A DNA stretch of 64,000 bases from assembly GCA_958296105.1 (NCBI GenBank), contig OY282441.1:2377800-2441799 (forward strand), read 5' to 3'. Each line of letters opens with the position of its first letter. Position 1 is the stretch's first letter. The stretch comes from an uncultured Dehalococcoidia bacterium (GTDB lineage Bacteria; Chloroflexota; Dehalococcoidia; Lucifugimonadales; UBA1123). The notes under the pieces are model-generated. The model saw nothing but the letters and a program-made list of their open reading frames with translations, made no database searches and was not told where the DNA came from. Of this stretch, positions 42,174 to 44,880 are shown in pieces. The position numbers were made by a program, and so were the translations under genes.

Positions 42174-43318
42174 CCTTCTTCACCCCCGAAATGCGGCATC
42201 ACCTCCGCGGCGAACAGCCTGATCTGCTCCATGAACTCATCGCGCGGCATACCCTCCGCCCAGTGCAGAATCACGTGTTCGAGGCCGGGATACTTGCGCT
42301 CCACGTCCTTGAGCATGGCGACGAAGTCCTGCGGCGGGCCGCATACCCAAGCCTTCTGCTGAACCCCGTCCTCGATGAATGGCGTCCGCGCCGGCGCGCC
42401 GGGCGTCCCCCACGTGCGCCCCAGCTCGTCCGCGTATCGCACGAACCCGAATGGCGCGAACCACTTGTAGCGCTCGTCGTGATATGGACGCAGACGCTCC
42501 ATCGCCTCCCGCTGGCTGTTGGCAAGATAGAAGCCGAGTCCGAGCGCCAGGTCTTCGCCGAGCGCCAGATCCCGCCCGCGCTCGGCATTGGCTTCACGGA
42601 AGCGCTCGAATATCCCCTCGACCAGCGTCTCGCCCGTCAGCGCGACCACCCCCTTTATGCCCCTCTCCGCCATGAAGTCTATCGTGCGCCCGCTCACTAT
42701 CGGCTGCCACATCTCGACTGGAAGATGCTTCGGACGCGGAACCAGCGTCACATCCTCTAGGTCGTACCCGCGATACTCCACCTTGGGCGGAATCGTGTAA
42801 CGCTTTCCCCGATGCGAAAAGCTCTCCTCGTTGAAAGCCTTGAAGATAACCTCCATCTGCTCCTCGAACAGCTCGCGGTTCGCGTCGTTGTCGATCACCG
42901 GAGCGCCGAACGTCTCCACCTCGCGGCTGTGATAGCCCCGTCCGACCCCGAAGATGATGCGCCCGTCCGTCAGGATGTCCGCCAGCGCGTAGTCTTCCGC
43001 CAGCCTCAGCGGATGCCACATCGGGACTATGTTGAACGCGCAGCCGAACTTCAGCCGCGCCGTCCGCGCCGCCAGATGCGTCCCCAGCAGGATGATGTTG
43101 GGGATGCACTCGTAGCCCTCGCGCTGAAAGTGATGCTCCGCCATCCACAGCGCGTAGAAGCCCAGCTCGTCCATCAGCTGCGCCGCCTGCGCCGCCGTGT
43201 CCAGGCTCTCCGCCAAGCGGTGGCTGGGGTAGCGCCTGCCGTCCGCCGGCGCGCCGTCTATCCCCACGTCTTCCAGATCTATGTTGCCAACGTAGAGTAC
43301 CGAGAAATGTTTGATCAA
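42170..43318 (-). CDS. LLM-class flavin-dependent oxidoreductase
   Basis: 382 aa from TTG 43318; GGAGG lies 8 bp upstream and the usual luciferase-like N-terminus (HFSVLYVGNIDLEDVG) begins there, while upstream codons have no homology. Bacterial luciferase-like TIM barrel: ALWMAEHHFQREGYECIPNIILLGTHLAARTARLK spans about residues 50-85 and DGRIIFGVGRGY lies near 117-128. These enzymes use FMN or F420 to oxidise organic substrates. Overlaps the methyltransferase gene. Confidence 0.88.
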   Translation of the reverse strand: MIKHFSVLYVGNIDLEDVGIDGAPADGRRYPSHRLAESLDTAAQAAQLMDELGFYALWMAEHHFQREGYECIPNIILLGTHLAARTARLKFGCAFNIVPMWHPLRLAEDYALADILTDGRIIFGVGRGYHSREVETFGAPVIDNDANRELFEEQMEVIFKAFNEESFSHRGKRYTIPPKVEYRGYDLEDVTLVPRPKHLPVEMWQPIVSGRTIDFMAERGIKGVVALTGETLVEGIFERFREANAERGRDLALGEDLALGLGFYLANSQREAMERLRPYHDERYKWFAPFGFVRYADELGRTWGTPGAPARTPFIEDGVQQKAWVCGPPQDFVAMLKDVERKYPGLEHVILHWAEGMPRDEFMEQIRLFAAEVMPHFGGEEG

Positions 43319-43424
43319 GTCGCTTGCCTCCGACGGATTGACTGACGCGATATATGATAGCGCATCGAACGCTTGGCTATCTGCGTTACAATGGGGGAAA
43401 CATCCAAACCGAGAGGCGAAGGAC

Positions 43425-44069
43425 ATGCCCAGCAGGGACGAGGCGCTGAGACTGCTCCGCGAGCATAGGCGGACGCTTGCGGAACGCTTCGGCATAGTGG
43501 AGATCGCGCTGTTCGGCTCCACCGCGCGAGACGAAGCCACCGAGCGCAGCGACGTCGACCTTCTGGCGAAGTTCGACCGCCCGTCTAGCTCGATCCGCAG
43601 CCTCGAAGCGCAGTCTTATCTCGAATCCGTATTCGGGCGCTCGGTGGATCTGGCGACGGAAGAGGTGCTGAGAAGCGAGCTGCGCCCGTATGTGGAGGAA
43701 GACATAGTGAAAGGTCCGATATCCGACGTGGGACGAAGGGGCAAGGACTGGACAATCTACGCGCGAGACATGATCCGATTCGGAGAGACCGCGCTGGAGT
43801 ACACGAGCGGCATGGAGCGCGCCGAGCTCTTCGCCGACAGACTCAGGTACGATGCCACGCTGCGAAATATCGAGCTCATTGGCGAAGCCGCGACGCACAT
43901 TCCCGATGAAGTCCGCGCCGCCAACCCCGATATAGACTGGGGCGGCATAATCGGCGCCCGCAATCGCATAGTTCACGGATACCTCAGCATAGACGAAGAT
44001 ACTGTCTGGGATATCATACGCAGGCGCATACCTGAGCTGCTGCCGATGCTCCGCCGCATGAACGAGTAG
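43425..44069 (+). CDS. Fused MNT nucleotidyltransferase-HEPN protein (MntA-HepT fusion)
   Basis: 214 aa from ATG 43425. Residues 1-95 are a minimal nucleotidyltransferase: GS at 31-32 and DxD at 43-45 (GSx10DxD). Residues ~105-214 are a HEPN domain with R179-x4-H184-x-Y186 (RNRIVHGY), the RNase motif plus the Tyr that MNT antitoxins AMPylate. In most bacteria these are two overlapping genes, antitoxin mntA and toxin hepT. Here one open frame joins them through EEDIVKGPISDVGRRGKDW with no stop or frameshift. The fusion should be self-neutralising in cis. A strong terminator hairpin follows. Confidence 0.88.
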   Translation: MPSRDEALRLLREHRRTLAERFGIVEIALFGSTARDEATERSDVDLLAKFDRPSSSIRSLEAQSYLESVFGRSVDLATEEVLRSELRPYVEEDIVKGPISDVGRRGKDWTIYARDMIRFGETALEYTSGMERAELFADRLRYDATLRNIELIGEAATHIPDEVRAANPDIDWGGIIGARNRIVHGYLSIDEDTVWDIIRRRIPELLPMLRRMNE

Positions 44070-44195: not shown

Positions 44196-44238
44196 CCATC
44201 TATCGGCAGCCCATTAGCGAACCAACCGGGAGGGAATT

Positions 44239-44880
44239 ATGGCAGACCAAGTAAAGGTCGATGTCTGGTTCGACTACGCTTGACCCTGGGTCTACAATGC
44301 AGCCGTGTGGCTGGATCAGGTAAAGGCGGAGTACGGAGACGATCTGGACATCAACTGGCGACACTTCTCGCTCGAACAGATCAACAGCAGGAGCGGCCCC
44401 GACTGGAAGGTCTGGGAGCAGAAGGACCTGCGCGAGGCGCGCGCGCTTCTGGCGTCTGTGGCGGGCGAGGCAGCCAAGCGACAGGGCGACGCGGAGGCGT
44501 TCGACCGCTTCCATCTCGCGCTTCTTACGGCGCGACACGCCGGCGGGCGCGTGCCGCTCAACCAAGACGAGCCGCTAATCGAGATAGCCGAGCAGGCGGG
44601 CCTCGATGTCGAGCGATTCAAGAAAGACCTCGACGACCCTGAAATCCTCGCCGCGGTGGTCGCCGACCACGAGGCGGCTACCACTCAGGAGAACGGCATC
44701 TTCGGAACGCCCACGTTCCTGTTCGAGAACGGCCACACCGCCTACATGAAGACCTTCATCCCGCCCAAAGAAGAGGCGGTCGAGGTGTTCGACAGCTTCG
44801 TATCCCTGTTCGGGAGCCGAACCTACGTGGGCGAGATCAAAAGCCCGCAGCCCCCGTGGCCAAAGGGCGCGCTGGATTAG
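44239..44880 (+). CDS. DsbA-family thioredoxin-fold oxidoreductase, probable selenoprotein (UGA = Sec15)
   Basis: 213 aa if UGA 44281-44283 is read through. ATG 44239 has GGGAGGGA 3 bp upstream. The first 14 codons read MADQVKVDVWFDYA, then UGA, then PWVYNAAVWLDQV. In DsbA/FrnE-like relatives this site is Cys (FDYxCPWC/V), so UGA replaces exactly the redox Cys. The rest is a full DsbA-like protein: helical insert ~50-140, then GIFGTPTFLFENG (cis-Pro loop) near 154-166 and a normal end. The body shows no other damage. A SECIS-like hairpin follows the UGA. If not Sec, the gene would be a single-stop pseudogene or would start at GTG 44305 without its active site. Confidence 0.8.
44281..44320 (+). 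promoter_or_regulatory. Candidate bacterial SECIS element
   Basis: Right after UGA, an inner stem CAGCC/GGCTG (44300-44304 with 44309-44313) closes a GTGT loop with G first, and an outer stem CCTG/CAGG (44285-44288 with 44317-44320) frames it. The loop starts 21 nt after UGA, within the 16-37 nt expected for SelB-dependent bSECIS elements. Confidence 0.65.

Follow-up and report, generated by a model that had tools for sequence, protein, structure and literature searches.

The gene at positions 44239 to 44880 of the window, that is, of the whole 64-kb stretch of DNA analyzed here, is almost certainly a genuine selenoprotein gene, whose UGA codon at residue 15 would be read as selenocysteine (Sec) with the aid of an in-frame SECIS hairpin. 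The codon itself, the Sec machinery of the host, conservation, Cys/Sec exchange among relatives, loss of the hairpin along with Sec and the predicted fold strongly support this reading, and from them we infer the actual insertion of Sec. The host genome is a 3.18-Mb single contig belonging to Dehalococcoidia/SAR202. The features on which the analysis is based are as follows.

44228..44234, + strand: Shine-Dalgarno-like GGGAGGG, 4 nt 5' of the ATG, read directly.
44239..44880, + strand: predicted selenoprotein gene with a 213-residue DsbA-fold product, Sec at residue 15 and zero cysteines (Pfam DSBA, E 1.7e-17; AlphaFold2 mean pLDDT 94.4).
44281..44283, + strand: UGA codon, assigned to Sec15 within D12-Y-A-U-P-W-V18 by direct reading and from the codons of relatives.
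44297..44316, + strand: putative in-frame SECIS hairpin, with a 5-bp apical stem (44300-44304/44309-44313), loop GUGU (44305-44308), a mismatch and an outer stem of 2 bp (44297-44298/44315-44316).
44701..44718, + strand: cis-proline loop FGTPTF, residues 155-160, with F155, G156 and P158 invariant; the cis conformation is taken from the fold family.

By direct reading, the frame begins with ATG at 44239, carries an in-frame TGA as codon 15 and is otherwise open until TAG at 44878-44880, and its translation with UGA as Sec starts MADQVKVDVWFDYAUPWVYNAAVWLDQ... The original prediction of a clean frame with a good ribosome site, broken by a single UGA, was thus borne out: GGGAGGG is in place, and the TGA is the sole stop before TAG. 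In a blind six-frame scan of the 64-kb window, 44281-44283 was the only UGA with coding-like sequence on both flanks. The mechanically called open reading frame begins at GTG 44305, and translation might therefore be thought to start there and to yield a 191-residue product without Sec, the upstream part being untranslated. A product begun there would, however, lack strand 1 as well as the loop of the active site; moreover, the 14 codons upstream have a Shine-Dalgarno sequence and the alignment-invariant D12, and the GTG itself sits in the hairpin loop. We regard this start as extremely improbable.

Conservation of the codon was followed through the relatives of the host. Exactly one TGA was present in the orthologue of each of the 8 family genomes (65-100% identity), the query protein was matched in 187 of 250 same-order genomes, with one TGA in most of the matches listed, and homologues were matched in 71 of the order's 97 genera. 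Among 90 orthologues extracted by sampling across the order, codon 15 was TGA in 85, TGT (Cys) in 5 and nothing else, and the motif D-x-x-[U/C]-P-[WFY]-[VA] was common to all 90. Additional Cys forms, with TGC or TGT, were found in two small-genome genera of the same order and widely through the phylum, and TGA forms were also found in other orders and classes. The in-frame UGA, open on both flanks, therefore aligns with the Cys of homologues, as predicted from the window sequence for the redox Cys, and the alternation of Cys and UGA expected in an alignment of homologues was observed. The first tree placed the five Cys genes among Sec genes and needed two changes, and with wider sampling the state switched about eight times on the tree. 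Two genomes of the set have adjacent duplicate Sec DsbA genes (G069:C239 and G070:C318) with TGA in both copies, and a search for phage copies of the gene found none. A distant DsbA-fold Sec candidate in the same order (L192, in G047) has the motif UPWC, of the UxxC type, and a strong hairpin past its UGA.

These data bear on the possibility that a nonsense mutation truly inactivated the gene, or that assembly turned a TGC, TGT or TGG into TGA. The standard bacterial code, in which UGA is a stop, is in keeping with that possibility, but the TGA is kept in all eight family genomes and across the order, the frame downstream is open with strongly conserved residues, TGT is the only alternative codon in the 90 genes, and the Sec machinery is complete. 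The orthologues showed no other nonsense change at or near the site, and a miscalled TGC or TGT can be set aside because independently assembled relatives have the same TGA, which excludes sequencing error. Judged by conservation of the sequence over dozens of species, the pseudogene or error reading fails and may be considered refuted, with a negligible probability.

The search for sel genes, set beforehand as a test by the original prediction, found every component in the one host genome: tRNA-Sec (66 bits, UCA anticodon), SelA (E 3.7e-130), the C-terminal winged-helix domain of SelB (E 5.8e-13, in a 620-residue frame) and SelD (E 1.7e-113). SelD has an in-frame TGA of its own, in the context CAG-U-ASKF, so at least one further gene of this genome is expected to have UGA decoded as Sec; the SelD UGA lies at L122:1531-1533 (G000:C1, about 539.7 kb), and a hairpin with a GGA loop lies 27 nt past it. 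Order-wide, 207 of 247 genomes gave a tRNA-Sec and 201 of 250 a SelA. The genome G142, which is 97% complete, has TGC in the gene, with no tRNA-Sec match and no SelA match listed. In two other genomes of the order (G095 and G096, 1.3-1.4 Mb), the gene is a Cys form, SelA is missing from the matches listed and tRNA-Sec gave only a weaker hit (E about 2e-9); their Sec system is possibly decaying. Because UGA is reassigned in some lineages, readthrough, or reassignment in which a suppressor tRNA inserts Trp or Cys, was also considered. Wherever UGA is replaced at this site, however, the codon is one for Cys (TGT/TGC) and in no case one for Trp or any other amino acid, the hairpin disappears once TGA becomes TGY, and tRNA-Sec, SelA, SelB and SelD are all present, while a single coding-flanked UGA in the 64-kb window argues against genome-wide reassignment. 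We consider this explanation very improbable, if marginally less so than a downstream start or a pseudogene, and decoding as Sec is the reading pursued below.

The apical stem-loop at 44300-44313 reads C-A-G-C-C / GUGU / G-G-C-U-G. A hairpin beginning 21 nt after the UGA, with a 4-nt loop, had been predicted; it is the loop, GUGU, that begins at that spacing, and the 5-bp stem begins at 16 nt. The published bSECIS model (PMC13188914) specifies a loop of 3-9 nt, a stem of at least 4 bp, a G at loop position 1 or 2, a UGA-to-loop distance of 16-37 nt and a minimum free energy of -7.5 kcal/mol or lower. The hairpin here agrees with the model in its GUGU loop, 5 bp, 21 nt and -9.5 to -10.3 kcal/mol, by a rule that discriminates weakly. 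The published rules were rejected as a discriminator, being too permissive: when such genes are shuffled synonymously, 62% of the shuffles still pass, and a hairpin in a single gene therefore proves little alone. Folding of the 50-nt stretch was similar to that of shuffles (z 0.08), and the 25-nt core folded better (z -2.5; 5 of 200 shuffles). Taken singly, the hairpin of the window gene gives modest support, and a search of the window against Rfam returned zero family matches.

Stronger evidence came from comparison of the relatives. Synonymous codon identity was 0.63 over codons +4 to +11 past the UGA, compared with 0.40 beyond +20. In TGA genes, the segment +12..+45 had a mean folding energy of -9.7 kcal/mol versus -6.6 kcal/mol in synonymous shuffles, and the corresponding values for TGT genes were -2.6 and -2.2 kcal/mol. 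The loop lies 21 nt past the UGA in most genes. RNAalifold gave no consensus structure for all 85 Sec sequences because the stem register moves by one nucleotide between clades, and pairing was counted register by register instead. The pair +21/+30 was G-C in 71, A-U in 8 and G-U in 5 of the 85 Sec genes, so that it was paired in 84 of 85, versus 77.4 in shuffles, with 0 of 1000 shuffles as high, the shuffles ignoring relatedness. The pair switches between G-C and A-U: replacement of Ala by Thr in the 5' strand of the stem is accompanied by a synonymous CTG to TTG change in the 3' strand. Across 114 genes, 90 of 92 Sec forms had the hairpin and 19 of 22 Cys forms lacked it; the exceptions were the Sec genes L070 and L084, without a hairpin by the criterion used, and the Cys genes L180, L181 and L141, with one. 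For six independent Sec/Cys pairs, the hairpin went with Sec in 5.6 on average and the opposite way in 0.0 (median p of the sign test, 0.031). The comparative data, rather than the lone hairpin, exclude chance, and they are good evidence for a role of the hairpin in UGA decoding. With TGA in 85 of 90 orthologues, sel genes in the host and a hairpin that tracks the codon, the proposed Sec15 of a UPWV center is well supported. Sec forms outside the order (L127, L128, L131, L132 and L140) have GGUCUU or GGUCUG apical loops, the window lineage having GUGU; those loops presumably resemble the SECIS loop of E. coli fdhF.

The Pfam DSBA domain (PF01323) was recognized over residues 7-166, spanning the UGA, with 64.3 bits against a curated cut-off of 25.6, and fold matches indicated a thioredoxin fold with a helical insert. 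AlphaFold2, with Cys modeled in place of Sec, likewise gave a confident DsbA fold. Invariant residues are D12, U/C15, P16, L45, H144, F155, G156, P158, K171, P175, E199, K201, P203, P205, W207 and P208. The protein is without any Cys, and the family in the order is without a conserved Cys anywhere but site 15. V18, which occupies the position of the resolving Cys of DsbA, is V, or A in a few cases, in all 90 orthologues, so that the CxxC or UxxC of a classical DsbA is replaced by UPWV. No signal peptide was visible before strand 1; since the N-terminus begins directly at this strand, the single-domain product is probably cytosolic.

The best match among solved structures was DR2335 of Deinococcus radiodurans (PDB 7dk9; C24S mutant, 7dka), with Z 23.2 and rmsd 2.0 over 193 residues at 31% identity. 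DR2335 has one conserved Cys, at the position matching Sec, and its function is without experimental data (PMC8945050); like the window protein it has no partner Cys, but its active site is CPYA, with Cys, and that of the window protein UPWV, with Sec. The next fold match, at Z about 18, was Rv2466c of Mycobacterium tuberculosis, from the nitroreductase family PF22234, mycothiol-dependent by its Pfam name; Rv2466c carries a further Cys in its active site (C22, the residue mutated in entry 5xur), which the window protein lacks. The window protein scored 24.1 bits (E 4.5e-5) for PF22234, below the curated cut-off of 27, and 25.4 bits for the Rcas_1661 family (seleno)lipoprotein NF041057, against an NCBI cut-off of 190. 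A selenoprotein that works as a conventional disulfide-forming or isomerizing DsbA, with the second Cys supplied by a partner, would agree with the Pfam DSBA domain and the DsbA fold. However, CxxC and indeed any Cys are absent, a signal peptide is not apparent, the motif is likewise CPxV in close Cys homologues from the phylum, and the single-Cys DR2335 (Z 23) and Rv2466c (18) rank above periplasmic DsbA proteins (about 15). This function is unlikely, and the DsbA-like oxidoreductase of the original prediction holds for domain and fold, not for a disulfide-forming DsbA.

A mono-selenol enzyme, comparable to the single-Cys DR2335, is expected instead of a CxxC DsbA, because the protein has no Cys and its relatives have no resolving Cys (UPxV/CPxV). 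SelB carrying Sec-tRNA(Sec, UCA) would decode UGA 44281-44283 as Sec because it recognizes the hairpin 44297-44316 within the coding sequence. Sec15 would then be the sole active-site chalcogen, situated at the N-terminal end of helix 1 and opposite the cis-Pro loop F155-G156-T157-P158-T159. Its selenolate would most likely attack an electrophile such as a disulfide or peroxide, and the selenenyl intermediate would most likely be resolved from outside, either by a low-molecular-weight thiol or by another protein acting as partner, because the resolving Cys is missing (UPWV). Such a mono-selenol cycle with an external thiol, suggested by the absence of Cys, is the mechanism with the best support and a serious possibility, somewhat short of probable. 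More tentatively, the protein may be an old, widespread, Cys-free mono-selenol DsbA-fold enzyme of the SAR202-type order, with a chemistry, such as small-thiol-dependent reduction of peroxides or organic electrophiles, that is undescribed for any DsbA-family protein. No redox partner emerged from the gene neighborhoods of sampled relatives and of the window's genus. In 17 of 21 neighborhoods of sampled relatives outside this genus, the gene lies directly 5' of an rnc-like (RNase III) gene, and in several of these an ftsY-like gene comes next, the rnc- and ftsY-like names coming from sequence reading, not profile search. In the window's genus, the gene adjoins a zinc-binding dehydrogenase. Directly upstream of the predicted selenoprotein gene in the window, one frame (43311-44069, + strand) combines a nucleotidyltransferase (PF01909) with a HepT-like ribonuclease (PF01934), apparently a fused MntA/HepT-type toxin-antitoxin pair.

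Proteins of this kind are already known, as a UxxV DsbA was reported in 2008 and a DxxUP form was cataloged in 2026. The 2008 Global Ocean Sampling (GOS) selenoproteome lists "DsbA 3" (Table 2) as a pfam01323 protein with UxxV, five selenoproteins in three samples and 72 Cys homologues (PMC2398784). Compared by motif, it shares with the window gene the Pfam domain, UxxV (here UPWV) and the existence of Cys homologues; "DsbA 3" consists of five metagenomic sequences, whereas the window gene is accompanied by the full Sec machinery in its genome and was traced through an order. Table 1 of the 2026 catalog lists a "DsbA-like protein form 2" with DxxUP (MDP6049977.1, with PMC5029168 as the reference given) and provides no taxonomy or distribution for it (PMC13188914). 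PF01323 and DxxUP fit D12-Y-A-U15-P16 exactly, in a match by motif, not sequence. At this motif level, the window protein belongs with the UxxV DsbA selenoproteins, having PF01323, D-x-x-U-P and V three residues after U (DYAUPWV). DsbA-like form 1 from the Sargasso Sea (PMC1088965) also has Sec in a DSBA-domain protein and a bacterial SECIS, but is UxxC with a resolving Cys, unlike the UxxV window protein. In the open-access literature, searched mostly by titles and abstracts, we found no report of the order-wide distribution, the total absence of Cys or the repeated Sec/Cys exchange with hairpin loss. Of the open-access papers searched, none mentioned SAR202 together with a selenoprotein and two mentioned it together with selenocysteine, and titles and abstracts gave no evident report of this protein under Dehalococcoidia, Chloroflexota or Chloroflexi.

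The sequence comparisons show a predicted selenoprotein that occurs widely across the SAR202-type order, a large group of bacteria whose members are mostly uncultured. Annotation that allows UGA no role but that of a stop would put the start of the gene too far downstream, GTG 44305 being one such site, and lose the active site. The UxxV DsbA subfamily gains a taxonomic home, full genome context and a deep alignment, and the use of Sec by SAR202-type bacteria becomes testable. The family, in which Sec and Cys were naturally exchanged about eight times with loss of the hairpin, offers material for studying the origin and decay of SECIS elements.
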